Source of the DNA: Hyphomicrobiales bacterium
GTDB taxonomy: Bacteria; Pseudomonadota; Alphaproteobacteria; Rhizobiales; Xanthobacteraceae
Length of the DNA: 33,991 nt
Direction of reading: 5' to 3'
Assembly (NCBI GenBank): GCA_017304555.1
Contig: JAFKKS010000167.1
Span: forward strand, 1-33,991
The position numbers and the translations under genes are program-made. Under the pieces are notes generated by a model, which was not told the DNA's origin, searched no databases, and saw only the letters and a program-made list of their open reading frames with translations. Shown here piece after piece: positions 463-9,083 of the stretch. The first letter of the stretch is position 1. Each line of letters starts with the position of its first letter.

Positions 463-2337
463 ATGCGTAGAAATTTTCGCAATCCGAAGGTTGCGCCGCC
501 GCGCGGGAATGCCGCCTATGAGGAAGAGGACGGCCAGCGGCTTTCCGCCAATCTCGATCTTCCGCTTGTCCAAGACGATGAGCACATGGAGCGGCTGCAA
601 CTGCAGATGCTCAACCGCTCGCGGCGCGAGATCCGGCACAAGGTGCCGCTGCCGCCGTCATGCTTCGGCCTGGAGGCCGGCGACATCGTCGCATGGACAA
701 GCTCGCGCAACGGCTACACGGCGAAGCTCTTCGAGGTCGACAGCAACGAGCTCTTCTACAATCTCAATTCAGCGCCGGCACTGATCGAGGTCGATCCGAG
801 CGATCACGATTGGGACAAGGGGACCGACTACGTCGCGCAGCCCGCGGTTTCACTCACCGTCGACCGGCCGGCGCCGAAGGTCATTACCGGCTTCGACGTC
901 GAGGCGATCAAGGTCACGGGCGATAATGGCGTCGAGAAGCCGGGCCTGCGCATCAGCTGGGACGCGCCCGAGGATGGCGACGTCAATGCGGTGCAGTGGC
1001 AGTATCGCCGCACGAGCGCGCCGGACGATGTCGCGGAGGGCAAGACCAACGACGTCGCGGCACTCCAGGTGCTTCTCGTTGGCGGCTTCAGTTCGCTCAC
1101 CAGCTACGACACGCGCGCGCGCCTGGAAAGCTTCAACGGCTATGCGGCCGACTGGTCACTGTGGGCGACGGTCACGACGCCTCAATGCGGCGAGACAAAT
1201 CTCTCCGTCTTGACGACCGAGGTTAACGACCTCATCGCCGGTGGTCAGAAGCGGCTCCAGGACGCGCTGCAGGAGGCGCAGCAACTCATTGCCTCGCTCG
1301 CGACCGGACAGGACGCGGCGAACCACCTCGAAGCGGTAGAGACGCGGCGGCTTCTAAGCGTTGAGCGCGACGACCGGAAAGCCTCGGTCGAAGAGGTGAT
1401 GACGGTCGCGGTTGGCGTGGATACGGCGCTCGCCGCCTACGAAGTAACGGTCAACGCGCATTTAGGAGCACTGGACTCGTCGGTTTCGACGAACGCTGGC
1501 GCGATCACGACGCTTGATAGCGCATTTTCGTCCTACCAAACGACGGTCAATGCTCACCTCGGAACGCTGGACTCGTCGGTTAGCACGAACGCCAGCGCCA
1601 TCGCCGACATCAATGGCAACCTCGCGGCGAAGTATGCGCTAACCGTCGACGCTAACGGCAACATCGCGGCCATGGAATTGATCGCCGGAGGAAGCGGGAG
1701 CGCGGTCCGGTTTCGATCCGATATTTTTGAGATCGCGATCAATGGCTCGCCGACCGGATACGCGGTCTTCACGGTCGCGAACGTCAGCGGGACTCCCACG
1801 GTCACGATCAGGGGCTCGGTTATCGCCGATGAGTTTCTCGTCAAGCGGATGATCGGCGACGACCAGGTCGACTACGACAAGCTGGAGACTGGCGCCGCAG
1901 CCGCTCTTGCCGATGCAGCGCATTCGACTATCAACGTTCTGTCGGCATGGACCTCGGGCCTTCCCGCCGACTGGCGCGATGTCGTCTCAACAACGATCAC
2001 CACCGTCACCGGCGACATCGAGATTTTCTACTACGCCAACCATTTCACGTACCTTCGGAACACGACCACAGGTCAAAGGATCGTCGTGCAGGTCCGCGTC
2101 CTGGTCGACGGCGTTGCGGCGGAAACCTTCGATCTCGTGACTGATGAGATCGCGAGCGGCAAATACTACTTCGACAAACCGATCTTCCTTCCTTCCTTCA
2201 AAACCGGGCTGTCGGCCGGCTCACACACCATCACGATTCAATCGCAGCGCGGGTTCGGGACATGGGGGACGGCGGATGCCGACAATGAATTCAGCGCCGG
2301 CAGAGTGCGCGTCAACGAACTGCGAAAGGCGGCGTGA
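463..2337 (+). CDS. Phage tail tip/host-specificity protein, J-like, N-terminally truncated
   Basis: 624 residues. The protein starts abruptly inside what looks like the middle of a J-like tail tip protein: residues ~15-60 (PPRGNAAYEEEDGQRL, then LDLPLVQDDEHMERLQLQML) resemble the region that normally follows several hundred N-terminal residues. Fibronectin-like material follows, with WQYRR at about residue 183. A helical, probably coiled region then holds a 32-residue repeat (TVNAHLGALDSSVSTNA and TVNAHLGTLDSSVSTNA, DNA period 96 bp, near 1447 and 1543). Next comes a DUF1983-like block, residues ~388-425 (YALTVDANGNIAAMELIAGG), a hallmark of tail fibre proteins related to lambda J. Full-length relatives usually exceed 1000 residues, so the 5' part is missing. 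The ATG at 463 lacks a convincing ribosome binding site, and the frame stays open upstream. Its stop overlaps the next gene (TGATG). Likely a non-functional prophage relic. Confidence 0.75.
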   Translation: MRRNFRNPKVAPPRGNAAYEEEDGQRLSANLDLPLVQDDEHMERLQLQMLNRSRREIRHKVPLPPSCFGLEAGDIVAWTSSRNGYTAKLFEVDSNELFYNLNSAPALIEVDPSDHDWDKGTDYVAQPAVSLTVDRPAPKVITGFDVEAIKVTGDNGVEKPGLRISWDAPEDGDVNAVQWQYRRTSAPDDVAEGKTNDVAALQVLLVGGFSSLTSYDTRARLESFNGYAADWSLWATVTTPQCGETNLSVLTTEVNDLIAGGQKRLQDALQEAQQLIASLATGQDAANHLEAVETRRLLSVERDDRKASVEEVMTVAVGVDTALAAYEVTVNAHLGALDSSVSTNAGAITTLDSAFSSYQTTVNAHLGTLDSSVSTNASAIADINGNLAAKYALTVDANGNIAAMELIAGGSGSAVRFRSDIFEIAINGSPTGYAVFTVANVSGTPTVTIRGSVIADEFLVKRMIGDDQVDYDKLETGAAAALADAAHSTINVLSAWTSGLPADWRDVVSTTITTVTGDIEIFYYANHFTYLRNTTTGQRIVVQVRVLVDGVAAETFDLVTDEIASGKYYFDKPIFLPSFKTGLSAGSHTITIQSQRGFGTWGTADADNEFSAGRVRVNELRKAA

Positions 2338-2861
2338 TGACATCGAAGCGCGAGGATTGGTGCATCGAGATTCGCGATGACAATCGCGACGGCACGCCGG
2401 AGATCACGGCCAAGTCGGAATATGTCATCCGCGGCCGCAATGGCGCGCGCCACGTCGACCAGGGGCTTCCGCCGCTCAAGACGGCGCTAGCTAACCTCGA
2501 CGATATTCCGGCGACCTTGCGCGACGGGACGGTGACGACTCTCGGTGCATGCGTCCAGAGCCTCCGCGACGCCGTCCGCGATGCAATTGATCAACTTGAG
2601 GTCGACATCGAAGCTGACCAGAAAGCCGACGCCCAGGACGCCGCCGAGCTGGCGCGTCGCTTCGGCGAGTTGGAGCGGCTCGACGCCGCGATCCGTCGCG
2701 CCGTCGCGCCGACGCAACAGCAACAGGACGCGGCGATGGCGAACTCCAAGGCGATCGGCGAGCTGCGCGATCGGCAAGACGCGCGGGCGCGCCGACGGCA
2801 CTGCTTGGCCGACAAGTTGCGCCGCTGTCAGCAACAGAAGGAAAAGGAGAAGAAGCAATGA
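2337..2861 (+). CDS. Hypothetical phage tail-associated protein, coiled-coil
   Basis: 174 residues from the ATG at 2337, which overlaps the previous stop by one base; AAAGG lies upstream. A GTG three bases earlier is less likely. No family is recognised. The N-terminal third (IEIRDDNRDGTPEI, then EYVIRGRNGARHVDQGLPPL) looks compact. The rest is a charged, alanine-rich helix (IDQLEVDIEADQKADAQDAA onwards) ending in a very basic Gln/Lys/Arg tail. Its place between tail tip and fibre genes suggests a tail accessory or fibre-assembly role, by position only. Its TGA overlaps the next ATG (ATGA), so the pair is probably translationally coupled. Confidence 0.65.
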   Translation: MTSKREDWCIEIRDDNRDGTPEITAKSEYVIRGRNGARHVDQGLPPLKTALANLDDIPATLRDGTVTTLGACVQSLRDAVRDAIDQLEVDIEADQKADAQDAAELARRFGELERLDAAIRRAVAPTQQQQDAAMANSKAIGELRDRQDARARRRHCLADKLRRCQQQKEKEKKQ

Positions 2862-3076
2862 CCGTCTACTTCGTAGAGAACCCGACCGGAATCACAACGG
2901 CTCTTGGCCGATCGTGCTTTGGCCCACATGAGGGCAAGGGCGCGCGCGACAAGGCGCTCGACATCGCCAAGAAGCTGGCGCGCGCGCCGGGCACGACGGT
3001 CCGCGTATTCGGTACGGATGGCGAGATTGTCACCGTTCAGGCGCCGGCCGCGGCTGCGATCAGCAGCAACAAGTAA
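2858..3076 (+). CDS. Small hypothetical phage protein
   Basis: 72 residues starting MTVYFVENPTGITTALG, with a strong AAGGAG about 8 nt upstream and a 4-bp ATGA overlap with the preceding gene. It has a basic central helix (ARDKALDIAKKLA) followed by a beta-like stretch (TTVRVFGTDGEIVTVQ), giving a compact alpha/beta mini-domain. No signal peptide or membrane segment. No function is recognised; the tail-operon position suggests a minor structural or assembly role. Confidence 0.65.
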   Translation: MTVYFVENPTGITTALGRSCFGPHEGKGARDKALDIAKKLARAPGTTVRVFGTDGEIVTVQAPAAAAISSNK

Positions 3077-3091
3077 GGCGGGGCTTAGACG

Positions 3092-5125
3092 ATGGGGCTC
3101 GGGTTCAAAGAAACGGGGACGATCAGCGTCACGGCCGGTAGCGCGACCGTCACCGGCACGGGCGTCGCTTGGTCCGACATCAATGAGTACGACGTGCTGG
3201 CCGCCGGCGGCTCGGTCGCGTTCATTGACAGCGTAACCGATACGGGGAGCTACAACGAGCTTACGGTAAAGGGGGCGTGGCGCGGCCCGACGCTGACCAA
3301 TCAACCGTATCTGATCGTCAAATTCCCGAAGGATTGGACGCGCACGCAGCAGGAACTGCGCGACCTTCTCAATCGGTTGAAAACCTACGGCGTTCCCTAT
3401 TGTCTCGGTGCCGGAGAGGACCCAGATAATTCGGTCGGAGAGGACGGGCAGTTCGCGTTCAGACCATCCGACTGGACGCTCTGGCTAAAGGTCGACGGCG
3501 TTTGGGTCGAGCAGCCTGCCCCCAACGCCGGCCCGGTCGGCCCTGCCGGGGGCGGCCTCACGCTGGACATGCTGGTCGACTATTCAAGCACAACTGATGC
3601 TGATCCCGGCCAAGGCAAAATCCGCGGCAACGTAGCCAACAACCTCGCCGGCTCGAGCGTGCTCTACGTGGACAAGGCGAACGTCTATAACAACAGCATC
3701 GTGGGGTTCTTGTCCGATCTCCGTTTGGCCAGTTCCGCGATTAAGGGATATCTCCGCATATCCGCGAAGTCGAACCGACTTCGCTTTGCTTACCATCGCG
3801 TCACAAGCGTCGACGACGCGACCGGATACGTGAAGATCAACGTTCAGAACCTCGCTGGCGCGCAGAATTTTGCGGATGGCGATGCGGTCGATCTCTTCAT
3901 CACGATCAAGGGCGACAAGGGCGACACGACGACTCCAGCCTTTGGCGGAACCTCCGCCACCAGCCTCGCGATAGGCACCGGCGCCAAGACCTTCACAACG
4001 CAGTCCGGTCTCGCGTGGCAAGTGGGCGCGCGCGTCCGGCTCGCGAATACGGCCGATCCGACCAAGTGGATGGAAGGCATCGTCACCGCTTATTCCGGCA
4101 CGTCGATGACGTTGGCGGTCGACGCGGCCAACAGCACCGGCACCCTCGCGTCCTGGAATTTGAATCCGGCTGGGGAGAAAGGCGCAACGGGAGGCGGTGC
4201 GCTCGCGGTGCGCGGCGGCCGGCTTTCGCTGGTTTCTGGAGATCCCGTTCCCGAAGCCGACGTCGTCGGCGCGACAACGGTGTACCTCGTGCCGGCGACT
4301 TCGAATACGAGCGAGGTGTGGGACGGAGCGGCATGGCAGACGCATCTGTTCAGCGAGTTGCCGTTGACGCTGGTGAGCGCTCATACGGCCGCGAACAACT
4401 TCGACGTCTTCGACTTCGTTAATGCCGGCGTGCTTGCGATCGGGACAGGGCCTGCGTGGAGCGCGGGCGCGGTGGCAGGCGGTCCCCGCGCGCGCGGACA
4501 AGGAGCGGGATCGACCGAGCTAGAGCTGTATCAAGGAAGGCTGGTCAACAAGAACGCCATCACGCTTCGGAACGGCTCCACGACGTACAGCGTCGCTGCG
4601 CGGAAAGCGACATTGCGCGGAACGATCCGCACAACAGCGAACGGGGAGACGGAGGATAGCGCGGCGAAGCGGTTCGTGAGCAATGCGGTCAATGCTGAGC
4701 TTCGCCCGCTCGTGAAGGTCGATACGACGACGGCATGGACTTATTCGACGCCGGCGTGGCGGCAGGCTCGCGGCTCGGCAGCCAACCAGTTCGAGTATGT
4801 GCAATGTGTCGCGGGGCGACGCTTAAAAGCCGACGTCAATGGCATCGCCTATAATTCGACGGACACCCCGAAGAACGTGAGCGTGGGCGTCGGCATCGAC
4901 TCTGCGACGGTCGACGCCTCGCAGCGAAGAACGGGTGGTGTGCTCAAAGCGCTCATCGACCAAACGCACGCATTTTATGCAGGCTTCCCCGGCGTCGGAT
5001 ATCACGAGATCAAGTGGCTTGAGTACGCCGCGGGAGCGGGCGACACGCAGACTTGGTGCGGCATCTTTTCGGCCCCGAACGCAGTGTACTTTCAAGCCGG
5101 CATCCAGGGCGAGACGCTGCTATGA
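3092..5125 (+). CDS. Phage tail fibre protein with collagen-like segments
   Basis: 677 residues; ATG at 3092 behind AAGGCGGGG. The N-terminal ~110 residues are beta-rich (GTISVTAGSATVTGTGVAWSD is the kind of repeat seen in fibre N-termini) and probably attach the protein to the tail. Short Gly-X-Y stretches act as linkers: GPVGPAGGG near residue 150, GDKGDTTTP near 275 and GEKGATGGG near 365. Glycine- and threonine-rich beta segments lie between them, and the last ~200 residues form a separate C-terminal region that would hold the receptor-binding part. Predicted to be a trimeric fibre contacting the host surface. Its stop overlaps the next gene (ATGATG). Confidence 0.7.
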   Translation: MGLGFKETGTISVTAGSATVTGTGVAWSDINEYDVLAAGGSVAFIDSVTDTGSYNELTVKGAWRGPTLTNQPYLIVKFPKDWTRTQQELRDLLNRLKTYGVPYCLGAGEDPDNSVGEDGQFAFRPSDWTLWLKVDGVWVEQPAPNAGPVGPAGGGLTLDMLVDYSSTTDADPGQGKIRGNVANNLAGSSVLYVDKANVYNNSIVGFLSDLRLASSAIKGYLRISAKSNRLRFAYHRVTSVDDATGYVKINVQNLAGAQNFADGDAVDLFITIKGDKGDTTTPAFGGTSATSLAIGTGAKTFTTQSGLAWQVGARVRLANTADPTKWMEGIVTAYSGTSMTLAVDAANSTGTLASWNLNPAGEKGATGGGALAVRGGRLSLVSGDPVPEADVVGATTVYLVPATSNTSEVWDGAAWQTHLFSELPLTLVSAHTAANNFDVFDFVNAGVLAIGTGPAWSAGAVAGGPRARGQGAGSTELELYQGRLVNKNAITLRNGSTTYSVAARKATLRGTIRTTANGETEDSAAKRFVSNAVNAELRPLVKVDTTTAWTYSTPAWRQARGSAANQFEYVQCVAGRRLKADVNGIAYNSTDTPKNVSVGVGIDSATVDASQRRTGGVLKALIDQTHAFYAGFPGVGYHEIKWLEYAAGAGDTQTWCGIFSAPNAVYFQAGIQGETLL

Positions 5126-5952
5126 TGGGGACAGCGTCGCCGCTCAACCGGCTGTGGGTTGATAATCCAGCGAAATATGTAGCCCCACACGGCGCCGTAT
5201 TCTTCCCCAACTTCGACAACCTGCAAGGCAAGACACAGGTGTCGCGTCGCCTGGTCGACGGACAGAGCACCGCCGTGATCGTTACGCTTGGCCAGTCGAA
5301 TTCGGCCAATTATCTCGGTTACGGGGAGACGCCTTACGTCGCATCACCGCTCGTTCACAATTTCAATTATCTGAACGGCGGGATGTATCTGGCGGCCGAC
5401 CCGCTGCTCGGATGCCCTGGAGAATACGGCAATTATGGTGCGCGCCTTGGCGACTTACTGATATCGCGCGGTCGGTTCCAGCGCGTGATCATCGCCCCGA
5501 TCGCCATCAACGCTTCATTGGCGGAGCATTGGAAGGACGGCGGTATCTTCAATCAAAATCTGCGCGTCGTGTTGCGGCGGCTCCTGGCGGCAGGCTTGAC
5601 GCCGACCTTCATCTGCTACCAGCAGGGTGAGAGTGATAACCGCATCGGAACGAGTTCGGCGTCGATCACAGCCTCGCTTCGGAGCATGGTGACGACGATC
5701 CGTGCCGAAGGTGTCAATGCCCCGGTCTTCATCGCCCTCACGGCGCTTTGGCCAGGTTATTCGAACGACGCGCAGATTCGCGCGGGGCAAGCCGCGGCTG
5801 TCGATCATAGCCTTGGCATTTATCAAGGGCCGGACACCGACACGCTTGACGCCGCGACCTATCGCACGGGCGGCGTTCATTTCAACGCGGCGGGAGCGCA
5901 GGCTTTCGCCGACCTCACTGAGCAGGTTTTAGCGGCGTATTTAGCGGGCTAG
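5122..5952 (+). CDS. SGNH/GDSL-family hydrolase (sialate O-acetylesterase-like), phage tail-associated
   Basis: 276 residues from ATG 5122 (an ATG at 5125 is equally possible), overlapping the fibre stop. The nucleophile block is GQSNSAN with Ser59, typical of the acetylesterase-like SGNH branch (SASA). GARLGDLL near residue 106 would be the Gly block and YQQGESDN (residues ~166-173) matches the family's QGES block. The C-terminal block reads TGGVHFNAAGA with His253. The acidic residue normally three positions before that His is Gly250, a GAC-to-GGC-type change, so the catalytic triad may be incomplete. Phage tails often carry such enzymes to de-acetylate surface polysaccharide; that role is inferred here from position. 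It converges tail to tail with the next ORF, sharing CTAG. Confidence 0.75.
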   Translation: MMGTASPLNRLWVDNPAKYVAPHGAVFFPNFDNLQGKTQVSRRLVDGQSTAVIVTLGQSNSANYLGYGETPYVASPLVHNFNYLNGGMYLAADPLLGCPGEYGNYGARLGDLLISRGRFQRVIIAPIAINASLAEHWKDGGIFNQNLRVVLRRLLAAGLTPTFICYQQGESDNRIGTSSASITASLRSMVTTIRAEGVNAPVFIALTALWPGYSNDAQIRAGQAAAVDHSLGIYQGPDTDTLDAATYRTGGVHFNAAGAQAFADLTEQVLAAYLAG

Positions 5953-6149
5953 ATCGAGCGTTCGAGATGCAGCCACTCCCGCAGCTCTTTGGATATCTCT
6001 CGATATTCCCACGAGCCATCGGGAAGCCGACGCCGCTCGCAATTGTCCCAGAACCACAGTCGAACGCGCTTCAGCGGGTCGGCGCGCGTCGGGACCCACA
6101 CGAAGGGGAACGGCGGATGGGAGAGGTGCCACGTCGCTTTGTCGAGCAT
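5949..6149 (-). CDS. Small hypothetical phage protein, Trp-rich
   Basis: 66 residues from the ATG at 6149; a GTG at 6182 would add 11. The sequence begins MLDKATWHLSHPPFPFVWV and holds WFWDNC and PDGSWEYREISKELREWL. The third codon positions are strongly GC-rich like those of real genes here, and the protein reads as a compact, tryptophan-rich soluble domain. No family is recognised. It lies on the opposite strand to the rest of the tail genes and shares the four-base CTAG with the hydrolase stop. No clear ribosome binding site precedes either start, which lowers confidence. Confidence 0.5.
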   Translation of the reverse strand: MLDKATWHLSHPPFPFVWVPTRADPLKRVRLWFWDNCERRRLPDGSWEYREISKELREWLHLERSI

Positions 6150-6268
6150 CGAAGAACCGTAGCGCAGAAGGAGACCGGACACAAAAGGAAGGACGAGGGC
6201 CGGATGACTCCGGCCGCGGGGCCAGCCTGGACAGCATCAACCCCGCTCGACGCACAATCGCTCTACGT

Positions 6269-6306
6269 CGACCCGCCGCGGCCCGAAGGCCGCGGGCAGA
6301 GGGTCG
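6269..6306. other. Strong hairpin just upstream of the adenine methylase
   Basis: A perfect 8-bp stem (CCGCGGCC, loop CGAA, GGCCGCGG) sits at 6276-6295, enclosed by a second 6-bp pairing CGACCC (6269-6274) with GGGTCG (6301-6306). It ends 23 bp before the methylase ATG. No T-run follows, so it is not a standard intrinsic terminator. It could slow transcription between the tail genes and the methylase or shield the leader. Confidence 0.4.
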
Positions 6307-6329
6307 ATGCATGTGGGGCAGATGGCAAT

Positions 6330-7139
6330 ATGAAATCGAAAATGCGCACAGTTTCGCCTGTGCGGCCGCTGGCGGGCTACGTGGGCGGCAAGAAGGTGTT
6401 AGCGCGGCATGTCATCGCGGCGATCGAGCGCGAGCCGCACGACCGCTATGCCGAGGCGTTCGTCGGCATGGGCGGCATATTCCTGCGCCGGCGATCGGCG
6501 GCCAAGGTCGAGGTCATCAACGACCGGAGCCGCGACGTCGCGACGTTCTTCCGCGTGCTGCAGCGTCATTATCAGGCGCTGATGGACATGCTGAAATGGC
6601 AAGTGACATCGCGAGCGGAGTTCGAGCGCCTCGCCGGGCAAGACCCGGAGCGGCTCACCGACCTGGAGCGCTCGGTGCGCTTCCTCTATCTCCAGCGGCT
6701 CGCCTTTGGCGGGAAGGTCGCCGGCCGCAGCTTCGGCATCGACACCAACGGGCCTGCGCGCTTCGACATCACAAAGCTCGGTGCGATGCTAGAGGCCGCG
6801 CACGAGCGGCTCGCCGGCGTCTGGATCGAGTGCTTGCCGTGGCAGGAGTTCCTGAAGCGCTGGGATCGGCCGGGAACGCTCTTCTATCTCGATCCGCCAT
6901 ATTACGGGTCGGAGCATCATTATGGCCGCGGCATGTTCGAGCGGGCCGAATTCGAGGCTCTCAACGAGGCGTTGAAAGGTCTTCAAGGGCGCTTTGTAAT
7001 GACGCTTAACGACGTTCCAGAGGTGCGTCGGATCTTCGGCTGGGCCAAGATGCGAGGCGTGCCGGTGACCTATACGCTGCCCGGCATGGCCGGCCGGCAG
7101 GCGGCGAAGGAGTTGATCATCACCGGCAAGCGAGGATGA
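6330..7139 (+). CDS. Phage-type D12 class DNA N6-adenine methyltransferase (Dam-like)
   Basis: 269 residues from ATG 6330; ATG 6342 is an alternative, and the long open stretch upstream is non-coding or belongs to the opposite strand. The SAM-binding N-terminus reads PLAGYVGGKKVL (residues 13-24), the Dam-type counterpart of AGGK. EAFVGMGGIFL is the next conserved block. The catalytic motif IV is DPPY at 188-191 in FYLDPPYYGSEHHYG. FVMTLND and ITGKRG near the end complete the fold. The family transfers methyl groups from SAM to adenine N6; the target sequence cannot be read from the protein. No restriction gene lies beside it, so it is an orphan phage methylase, probably protecting phage DNA. 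A small ORF starts 5 bp downstream. Confidence 0.85.
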   Translation: MKSKMRTVSPVRPLAGYVGGKKVLARHVIAAIEREPHDRYAEAFVGMGGIFLRRRSAAKVEVINDRSRDVATFFRVLQRHYQALMDMLKWQVTSRAEFERLAGQDPERLTDLERSVRFLYLQRLAFGGKVAGRSFGIDTNGPARFDITKLGAMLEAAHERLAGVWIECLPWQEFLKRWDRPGTLFYLDPPYYGSEHHYGRGMFERAEFEALNEALKGLQGRFVMTLNDVPEVRRIFGWAKMRGVPVTYTLPGMAGRQAAKELIITGKRG

Positions 7140-7143
7140 TGAC

Positions 7144-7356
7144 ATGACCAGGGATGAAGCGACGGCGTGGGCTATCAACACGGCCTCGGAGATCGCGAGG
7201 CGCGAGGGCGGACAGCTGGCCCTATCCTCTCGGGAACTCAACTTCCAGGCCGTCGAGGCCGACAGCACGTTGTTGGGGGCAGCGATCGCGCGGGCTCTTA
7301 TCGAGGCTTTTGACAGGGGCGTCGCGTCCGGCCAGAGGCCGCGGGCTTCAAAGTGA
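7144..7356 (+). CDS. Small hypothetical phage protein
   Basis: 70 residues (MTRDEATAWAINTASEIARR to the end), ATG at 7144, four bases after the methylase stop and so probably co-transcribed. Predicted all-helical and soluble, with no membrane segment. No family is recognised. It is the last phage-like ORF before the long non-coding stretch and marks the right side of the remnant. Confidence 0.55.
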   Translation: MTRDEATAWAINTASEIARREGGQLALSSRELNFQAVEADSTLLGAAIARALIEAFDRGVASGQRPRASK

Positions 7357-7377
7357 CACGACGATTCCGGCTGCTAC

Positions 7378-7413
7378 AAAATCAAGTGTCCCGGAATCTA
7401 AAATCAAGTGTCC
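7378..7413. repeat. Tandem 14-bp direct repeats, 22-bp period
   Basis: AAAATCAAGTGTCC occurs at 7378-7391 and again at 7400-7413, so the copies are two helical turns apart. They lie just past the last prophage ORF. They may be paired regulator binding sites or a leftover insertion-sequence end; no transposase is present in the window. Confidence 0.5.
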
Positions 7414-7456
7414 GGCTACAGCGGACTCGCGTCTTCCTGACAAATCGCGAAAATCG

Positions 7457-7484
7457 TTGACAACACTGTCAATGTGATTATATT
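7457..7484 (+). promoter_or_regulatory. Promoter-like sequence with embedded palindrome
   Basis: TTGACA at 7457-7462 and TATATT at 7479-7484 are separated by 16 bp, close to a sigma-70/RpoD promoter. The -35 box is half of a perfect palindrome, TTGACA-ACAC-TGTCAA (7457-7472), which could be an operator. The surroundings are much more AT-rich than the flanks. Nothing protein-coding follows for about 770 bp, so if active it would transcribe the structured element that starts near 7500. Confidence 0.4.
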
Positions 7485-7499
7485 CCCATTCATCCCGCC

Positions 7500-7910
7500 C
7501 CATCCGAGGGGCGTTCGCGAGCGTCACGCGCGCGGGGCGGGGAGCGGTGGCCGGGCGGCGCGTTCGTTGACGCGGACGCCTTCCCGGCGGGCCCAAGTCG
7601 TGTGGTCCCGGCGCGCCTGCTGTCGCGTCGACTTTGGGGCGCTCGGCGGCTTTGGTTTGCGGGCGGCGCCGACTGCCCGGAACGTAAAGGCCGCGCCCCG
7701 CCATCGGTGGATAGGCTCCGCACCCCCGCAAAGGGAGGAGCCTGAAAGGGTCAGTCCACCGGGGGCCACACGGAGCAAGCCCAAGCACACCGCGCGCGGA
7801 ACGCCGGGGTTTCCGGCGCACCGTGGTGACTAAGCCTGTGCACTCGTTCCTTCAAAAACGTGTGCAGGGCTGCGGGGCGTCTGGCGCCCCGGCGTTCCGC
7901 GCGCCCTCGG
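7500..7910. repeat. GC-rich, highly structured non-coding intergenic element
   Basis: No credible protein gene lies here. Open frames exist on both strands but are Arg/Pro/Gly-rich and show no family signature. Nested pairings are clear. Stem 1, CGGTGGA (7705-7711) with TCCACCG (7755-7761), encloses stem 2, AGGCTCC (7713-7719) with GGAGCCT (7737-7743). Further on, a perfect 18-bp inverted repeat (7792-7809 with 7887-7904) closes the 3' part. Its inner half, CGCCGG, can instead pair locally with CCGGCG at 7813-7818. From memory, similar blocks recur in Bradyrhizobium-related genomes, where they are often mis-annotated as proteins; this was not checked. A long structured RNA and a multicopy repeat are both possible. 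Confidence 0.55.
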
Positions 7911-7983
7911 ACTTTTCCGTGGGCAGGACGGCCGCACACCCCGGGCGCGTTCGCGCCGCGGGACGGATTTGGCGTGTTTGCAT

Positions 7984-8125
7984 CCCTCCCCGGAGGGGAG
8001 GGTGGCTCCAAATGAGCGAAGCGAATGAGGAGACGGGTGGGGACAATCGCAGTCTCATCCGAATCGCGAGGAGCCGTCCCCACCCGGCCGGCGCAAGCGC
8101 CGTCCACCCTCCCCTCCGGGGAGGG
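7984..8125. repeat. Mosaic inverted-repeat element, copy 1
   Basis: A perfect 22-bp inverted repeat, 7984-8005 with 8104-8125 (arm core CCCTCCCCGGAGGGGAGGG), encloses about 98 bp that includes GGGTGGGGAC and GTCCCCACCC near the centre. It resembles the short intergenic mosaic repeats of rhizobial genomes. A second copy in the opposite orientation lies at 9089-9214, so the pair brackets the transglycosylase gene. Confidence 0.75.
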
Positions 8126-8258
8126 AGAGGAGGGAAGACGCCGCGCGGCATCGCGGCTGCCACAATTTCGGCCCGGGCGTGCTATTGCTTGCCGGCGCTT
8201 TCCCTGTTCGCCGCGCGCGCGGCCCCTCCCCGCGCCGCTCCAGCCCCGAGGTCCCCGC

Positions 8259-9083
8259 ATGATCGCGCGCATCCGTGCCGCCGCCGCCGTCTCCGTCGCG
8301 CTCACCCTCCCCCTGCTCGGCGCGGCCGTCACACCCGCTTCCGCCGCGCAATGCGGCGGCAGTTTCCAGAATTTCATCGGCGCGTTCTCGCGCGAAGCAG
8401 CAGCGCAGGGCATCTCGCAAGGCGTCATCCAGCAGGCGCTCGGCGGCGTTACCGAGGATCCGAAGGTGCTTGCCTTCGACCGCCGCCAGCGCGGCACCTT
8501 CCGCAAGAGCTTCGAGGACTATGCGCGCACCCGCGTCGGCCCCGCGCGCATCAAGCGCGCCAAGGCGCTGATGGCGCGGCACGCTGCAACGCTCTCGCGC
8601 GTCGAGGCGCGCTTCGGCGTGCCGCGCGAGCTCATCATGGCGATCTGGACGATGGAGACCGACAACGGTGCCGACATGGGCAAGCTGCCGGTGGTGCGCA
8701 CGCTGGCGACGCTCGCGCATGACTGCCGCCGCACCGACCTGTTCCAGACCGAGCTGATGGCGGCGCTGAAGATCGTGCAGCGCCAGGACCTGCCGCTGCG
8801 CGACATGCTCGGCGCTTACGCCGGCGAGATCGGGCAGACGCAGTTCCTGCCGTCGTCGTACATCAAGTACGGCGTCGACTTCGACGGTAACGGGCACGTC
8901 GACCTTCGCCACAGCATCCCGGACGTGCTCGCCTCCACCGCGAACCTGCTCAAGGTCAACGGCTGGAAGAAGGGACAGCCGTTCGGCCTCGGCACCGCGA
9001 ATTTCGAGGTGATGCGCGAGTGGAACCGCTCCGAGGTCTACCGGCAGACGCTGCACTATTTCGCGGGGAAGATCGCGCAGTAG
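8259..9083 (+). CDS. mltB: Lytic murein transglycosylase, MltB/Slt35 type (GH103)
   Basis: 274 residues from ATG 8259 with GAGG upstream; the open frame extends further upstream but there it reads through repeat sequence. Residues 1-30 form a signal peptide (MIARIRAAAAVSVALTLPLL to PASAA), so the enzyme is exported. There is no lipobox, unlike E. coli MltB. The SLT_2 domain follows. The catalytic Glu is E133 in IWTMETDNGADMG, and the family block GEIGQTQFLPSSY is near residues 188-200. A DFDGNGHVDL loop (~207-216) resembles the Ca-binding EF-hand-like loop of Slt35. It cleaves the MurNAc-GlcNAc bond of peptidoglycan, forming 1,6-anhydroMurNAc. This is a host gene, although a prophage remnant lies nearby. 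Inverted copies of one repeat element stand on either side. Confidence 0.88.
   Translation: MIARIRAAAAVSVALTLPLLGAAVTPASAAQCGGSFQNFIGAFSREAAAQGISQGVIQQALGGVTEDPKVLAFDRRQRGTFRKSFEDYARTRVGPARIKRAKALMARHAATLSRVEARFGVPRELIMAIWTMETDNGADMGKLPVVRTLATLAHDCRRTDLFQTELMAALKIVQRQDLPLRDMLGAYAGEIGQTQFLPSSYIKYGVDFDGNGHVDLRHSIPDVLASTANLLKVNGWKKGQPFGLGTANFEVMREWNRSEVYRQTLHYFAGKIAQ

Follow-up and report, generated by a model that had tools for sequence, protein, structure and literature searches.

Few bacterial RNAs match the size and complexity of the one described here, and of those solved so far, several do something unusual. The closest described examples are presumably the large structured RNAs OLE, GOLLD, ROOL, and HEARO. 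Described elements of related bacteria include (i) Br-REP1 and Br-REP2 of Bradyrhizobium and Rhodopseudomonas, short palindromes of ~20–40 nt; (ii) a larger repeat around Br-REP2 in the same bacteria, which is mentioned without data; and (iii) BjsR and BjrC of Bradyrhizobium, independently transcribed small RNAs, some of which are present in two to four copies (PMC5082802).

The DNA analyzed here, referred to as the window, is a stretch of 33,991 nt from a Hyphomicrobiales bacterium (contig JAFKKS010000167.1). Its plus strand carries, at 7457–7985, one copy of a dispersed family that we interpret, with a probability of roughly 0.75, as structured RNA genes present in multiple copies, most of which would have a start signal of their own. 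The family alignment and covariation place a non-coding structured RNA of ~470 nt at 7491–7965 (plus strand), both ends being approximate estimates. A preliminary description of this locus had read it either as a structured, non-coding RNA or as repeats whose structure is conserved; both readings hold, as the family is dispersed and its copies show compensatory changes on the plus strand. Screening the window against Rfam release 15 yielded no match at the gathering thresholds; relaxed cut-offs brought up only chance-like matches that fell far short of threshold. A search of the open-access literature found no description of the element. The family is apparently uncatalogued.

Size and distribution of the family

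The RNA unit of the family measures ~450–550 nt, and the homologous unit, which includes at least seven helices, ~550–620 nt; assignment to the REP/BIME palindromes, whose unit is a single palindrome of ~20–60 nt, was rejected on these dimensions. The element matches its own genome once, and no second copy above noise was found in that assembly (89.6% complete, 542 contigs). A search of related genomes by DNA similarity matched 32 of 101, the weakest matches being short. Scanning named genomes with a conserved 20-mer identified at least 119 stretches, with matches in Pseudolabrys, Rhodopseudomonas, Afipia, Tardiphaga, Nitrobacter, and Pseudorhodoplanes, among others; a match to the 20-base pattern in Halorussus (L204) was put down to chance. 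Once duplicates were removed, 139 distinct copies were available, 110 of which include the 5' domain.

Scored with a covariance model built on the 3' domain, 122 of the 249 genomes sampled from the window's bacterial family contain the element, and these represent 24 of 47 genera. Outside this bacterial family, one genome matched, from another family of the order, and there was no other match to this model among 289 genomes sampled across the class. This lone 3'-domain match (L211, in genome G374) scores 84 bits and lies in different surroundings; it may be distantly related, have been transferred, or resemble the family by chance. Genomes of these soil bacteria, relatives of Rhodopseudomonas, Afipia, and Pseudolabrys, hold from one copy to dozens, with tens in some genomes of genus g25, which we suspect to be Bradyrhizobium; per-genome counts obtained with the covariance model are lower bounds, only the best candidates having been scored. 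In the g25 genomes (5.5–8.8 Mb), a closing-stem pattern matches 15–141 times per genome, both arms often being counted, and its reversed control 0–1 times. Searches of plasmid and phage collections returned no match.

Promoter and fold of the RNA

As the preliminary description had noted, the element is headed by a sigma-70-like promoter (7457–7484, plus strand) in which TTGACA (7457–7462) and TATATT (7479–7484) are separated by a 16-nt spacer. It matches the consensus at 11 of 12 positions, and a scan of 7200–8300 returned two promoter-like sites where shuffling expects 0.1; the RNA of this copy is predicted to start at ~7490–7492. Of 106 copies, 77 have a strict -35/-10 pattern at this distance from the RNA, versus 11 of 2120 random positions (0.5%), and many of the copies that fail it are near misses. 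The palindrome TTGACA-ACAC-TGTCAA over the -35 box (7457–7472, plus strand), to which the preliminary description had also drawn attention, is present but private to the window copy; other members keep the -35 and -10 boxes without it.

Two groups of copies depart from this arrangement and count against the gene-family reading. In g25, the upstream sequence is of the form AAAAATATTCC...CAAATCA, without a clear TTGACA/TATATT; about 10 other copies have a type of their own, in which CTTAT comes after CTTATCCC or a related form. In members of this second class (L042, L043, L044, L060, L061, L067, L094, L173, L181), CTTATCCC or the related TCCCCGCC form lies ~15 nt ahead of CTTATNAT or a similar sequence and stands in for TTGACA/TATATT, with the distance to the RNA unchanged; it is possibly the target of another sigma factor. 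Several of the g25 copies among L214–L226 have in common a block further upstream, TGCGACAAAACAACCCGACGGGCAAATCA, which itself contains the near-palindromic CCCGACGGGC. The spacer of many copies (upstream regions of L034, L047, L049, L081, and L195) contains ATTCCTA...TAGGA followed by TATATTCC; this inverted repeat overlaps the -10 box and could be an operator.

At -263.7 kcal/mol, the plus strand of 7490–7925 folds much more stably than its dinucleotide shuffles (z = -5.1), while the minus strand scores much more weakly (z = -2.2). In the 5' domain (7493–7542, plus strand, as for all helices below), P1 (7493–7501/7534–7542) surrounds P2 (7511–7513/7531–7533). The long-range helix P3 (7544–7793), in which GCGGTG at 7544–7549 pairs with CACCGC at 7788–7793, closes a central domain of variable length, and its final two nucleotides double as the first nucleotides of P6. 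Inside it, P4 (7599–7772) pairs CGTG at 7599–7602 with CACG at 7769–7772 and is lengthened in the window copy by additional pairs. The nested stems P5, both of which are found within 7705–7761 where the preliminary description had placed them (7705–7711/7755–7761 and 7713–7719/7737–7743), occur with different letters in two other copies, L085 and L088, an assignment made by inspection of these and the window copy. The 3' domain (7792–7904) consists of the closing stem P6 (7792–7805/7891–7904) and the hairpins P7 (7835–7843/7860–7868) and P8 (7874–7879/7885–7890).

The perfect 18-bp closing stem first described for this locus (7792–7809/7887–7904) exists, but the conserved stem is 14 bp long because its last four base-pairs (7887–7890) are taken by P8 in the family consensus. 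Likewise, two mutually exclusive pairings of CGCCGG had been described, and both can form, since CGCCGG at 7802–7807 can alternatively pair with the local CCGGCG at 7813–7818; covariation, however, backs the long closing stem, and the local alternative, which uses the same constrained 5' arm, is largely missing in g25. Downstream, a GC-rich hairpin (7939–7962, arms 7939–7949/7952–7962), seen by eye at the same position in other copies, likely lies close to the 3' end of the RNA.

Compensatory changes, which the preliminary description had proposed to look for in the stems, occur on the plus strand in several helices. P1 is paired in 97.3% of cases among 63 sequences, with two-sided changes at six of its nine pairs. 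A rival 5' fold, the local hairpin CGCCCC/GGGGCG, is 97.9% paired, but its covariation does not exceed that of shuffles; P1 is therefore preferred. Each of the six positions of P3 is paired in 96–100% of 106 copies, and its one-sided changes are nearly all to G.U, with two double changes. For P4, 307 of 332 cells are paired (mean of 264 and maximum of 274 in 500 shuffles), the pairing types being CGTG/CACG, CGCG/CGCG, CGCT/AGCG, CGCA/TGCG, and TGCA/TGCA. The 3' domain has 97.1% of its cells paired, 171 two-sided cells versus 52.6 in shuffles, and a covariation score of 0.312 (0.157 when shuffled, 0.03–0.12 with slid partners); as the sequences in all of these counts are related, the comparisons with shuffles are not probabilities. 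Most of the two-sided changes of this domain lie in P7 and P8. P6 varied little in the first set of copies; with g25 added, it shows two-sided changes at four pairs while being 99.3% paired, and across genera its sequence changes in a compensatory manner (GCGCGCGGAACGCC against GCGCAGGGAAGGCC).

Furthermore, G.U cells greatly outnumber A-C cells (107:9 in the 3' domain, 59:5 in P1, 22:1 in P2). A plus-strand RNA would produce this asymmetry, but a DNA palindrome or a minus-strand RNA would not, and the bias speaks against the minus strand or double-stranded DNA as the target of selection. Together, the compensatory changes and this bias support one plus-strand fold comprising the 5' domain, P3/P4, and the 3' domain; in these alignments, the case for selection on RNA is carried by the agreement of several helices with the strand bias.

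Gene family, mobile repeat, and other readings

Copies within a genome resemble each other more closely than do copies at matching sites in different genomes. In the sister genomes G016 and G058, two matching-site pairs are 89.8% and 86.2% identical (the flanks match firmly for L058/L065 and more weakly for L057/L063), whereas the figures for non-matching copies inside either genome are 97.1% and 98.6%. On a tree of the copies, genome labels require 38 changes, compared with at least 62 in 200 shuffles. By these measures, the within-genome uniformity is the product of either concerted evolution or repeated spread. The main rival to an RNA gene family is a non-autonomous mobile repeat, similar to a MITE or a bacterial SINE, that has its own promoter, is moved by a protein supplied in trans, and has an RNA fold serving its own copying or protection instead of the host. 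The two interpretations are not exclusive, as a gene family is compatible with such an origin.

Several observations suit mobility. One to dozens of copies occupy intergenic sites that are largely unrelated; the homologous unit is fairly sharp-ended, at the -35 box and ~60 nt beyond the closing stem; and presence at the window's site, upstream of mltB, is patchy (of 23 genomes tested, 4 have it, among them the window's). Many contigs start or stop inside the element, 16 of the 80 matches listed lying no more than 200 nt from a contig's first base, a pattern that near-identical repeats would produce. Copy number, spread, and assembly breaks also fit a mobile repeat and to that extent count against the gene-family reading. 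However, inspection of the ends of copies by eye showed neither terminal inverted repeats nor target-site duplications, none of the copies found contains an inserted protein gene, and some sites are common to different genera (the site clusters include a few double entries, which stem from palindromic mirror matches on the other strand). Moreover, promoter letters vary while the transcribed part is near-identical within a genome, which fits selection combined with gene conversion better than simple copying. For two copies compared between two sister genomes, no clean empty site was found, the matching contigs starting or stopping at or near the element. On this evidence, a mobile repeat is quite possible, although we lean against it. 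Two further points speak against the gene family we favor: on the copy tree, the window copy belongs to none of the well-supported groups, and roughly half of the genomes sampled from the bacterial family lack a match, so that the lineage taken as a whole can do without the RNA.

The motif GCT[GCT]TTTGANA is found in the 250 nt that follow the closing stem in 41 of 135 copies (~30%; 0.007 expected per copy), in several genera including g25 (4 of 20 copies). It also occurs ~250 nt before 16S rRNA in four genomes of the bacterial family, as GGGCTGTTTGACA, which from its position and its resemblance to the textbook motif we take to be boxA. In these leaders (L276, L277, L278, and L279), it reads GGGCTGTTTGACAAGTGAAG or close and is followed by GAAGAAAGAGAAACGTGGACGGCGG. 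The core motif GCTGTTTGACA is common to the element and the rRNA operon leader, and the flanks are similar; in the element, however, boxA lies at the 3' end, no rRNA follows, and the remaining sequence is unlike the leader. The window copy is among those without an rRNA-type core: at 7970–7984 (plus strand) it has TGGCGTGTTTGCATC, a probable relic of the tail motif that is intact elsewhere as GTGGCTGTTTGACAATTGAATC or close, the form of the rRNA-leader boxA. RNA can probably still be made from this copy, but with no functional boxA.

That most copies, the window's included, lack boxA weighs against the gene-family reading as outlined here, and also against the view that the element is a decoy for the antitermination machinery, in which boxA in multiple copies titrates NusB/S10 and ties rRNA output to the level of this RNA. 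The identity of the core with that of the rRNA leader across several genera would suit a decoy, but the low share of copies with boxA (41 of 135, and 4 of 20 in g25), an elaborate upstream fold that would be superfluous, and a window copy that is a relic at best make it improbable.

In the window, the element precedes, on the same strand, an open reading frame for a lytic murein transglycosylase of the MltB_2 subfamily (8025–9083, plus strand), which is a neighbor outside the element and whose true start probably lies further in, near 8184. The interval between the two contains a perfect 23-bp inverted repeat, TCCCTCCCCGGAGGGGAGGGTGG, at 7983–8005 and 8104–8126, with 98 nt between its arms. 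On the other side, a prophage-like block (463–7139, plus strand) encoding tail fiber and tail proteins (463–2337, 3092–5125) and a D12-class adenine DNA methyltransferase (5967–7139) ends ~320 nt before the element. Further relatives have the element beside the same mltB neighbor, an arrangement that would suit a 5' leader or riboswitch-like control of the downstream gene. However, with genes predicted from GC content by codon position, the downstream gene shares the element's strand in 67 of 131 copies and lies opposite in the other 64, and it varies from copy to copy. Because of this random orientation, an mltB leader was rejected, and a leader function in general is very improbable; together with the upstream promoter, the orientation indicates that the copies behave as free-standing intergenic units.

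Finally, a protein-coding gene or an element acting as DNA (a cruciform, a protein-binding palindrome, or a REP-like repeat) is hardly tenable: high GC content, many inverted repeats, and REP-type repeats adjoining some copies would fit the latter, but the G.U excess of ~12:1 in the 3' helices marks selection on RNA, and indels of many lengths, with constraint in the family alignment falling on base-pairs instead of protein, argue against translation of the overlapping reading frames (119 aa on the plus strand, 157 aa on the minus strand), in agreement with the preliminary description, which had found no credible protein.

Proposed function and comparison with described RNAs and repeats

If the copies are RNA genes, RNA polymerase would initiate just downstream of the -10 box of each, making it a free-standing gene, and the transcript of ~450–550 nt would fold into three parts: a hairpin domain at the 5' end, a central domain whose length varies and which P3 and P4 hold together, and at the 3' end a rigid domain made up of the closing stem and two hairpins; a terminal hairpin would follow and, in ~30% of copies, an rRNA-type boxA. 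Sequence documents the position of the promoter, the plus-strand fold, the dispersal of many copies, and their closer similarity inside a genome than between matching sites of sister genomes; we further infer that the RNA is made and is stable, and that gene conversion keeps the copies alike. By analogy with rRNA operons, boxA may recruit Nus factors. The RNA would act in trans, most likely within a ribonucleoprotein; taken alone, this role as the RNA part of such a particle has, in our estimate, slightly less than an even chance of being correct. More tentative still is the full proposal of an undescribed class of large, multi-copy, trans-acting RNAs with rRNA-like antitermination signals, kept uniform by gene conversion and forming a ribonucleoprotein specific to the Xanthobacteraceae/Nitrobacteraceae lineage. 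A family that unites such copy numbers with a common fold, a boxA in some members, and uniformity inside genomes would be an unexplained RNA in a tractable and well-studied group, the relatives of Rhodopseudomonas, Afipia, and Nitrobacter, and a test case for whether families of this kind are host genes or mobile elements at the RNA level.

Br-REP1 and Br-REP2 resemble the element in being repeats scattered through the intergenic regions of this bacterial group, but their printed consensus sequences were not seen by eye in the window element; the larger repeat mentioned around Br-REP2 could be related to the element or merely adjacent to it (PMC5082802). BjsR and BjrC differ from the element in copy number, which is far lower (PMC5082802). 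With OLE, GOLLD, ROOL, and HEARO the element has in common a length of hundreds of nucleotides, a covarying fold of several domains, and independence from neighboring protein genes. It differs from them in that no Rfam covariance model matches it, that it is nearly restricted to one bacterial family, in which up to dozens of copies are dispersed through a genome, and that a subset of its copies carries an rRNA-type boxA.
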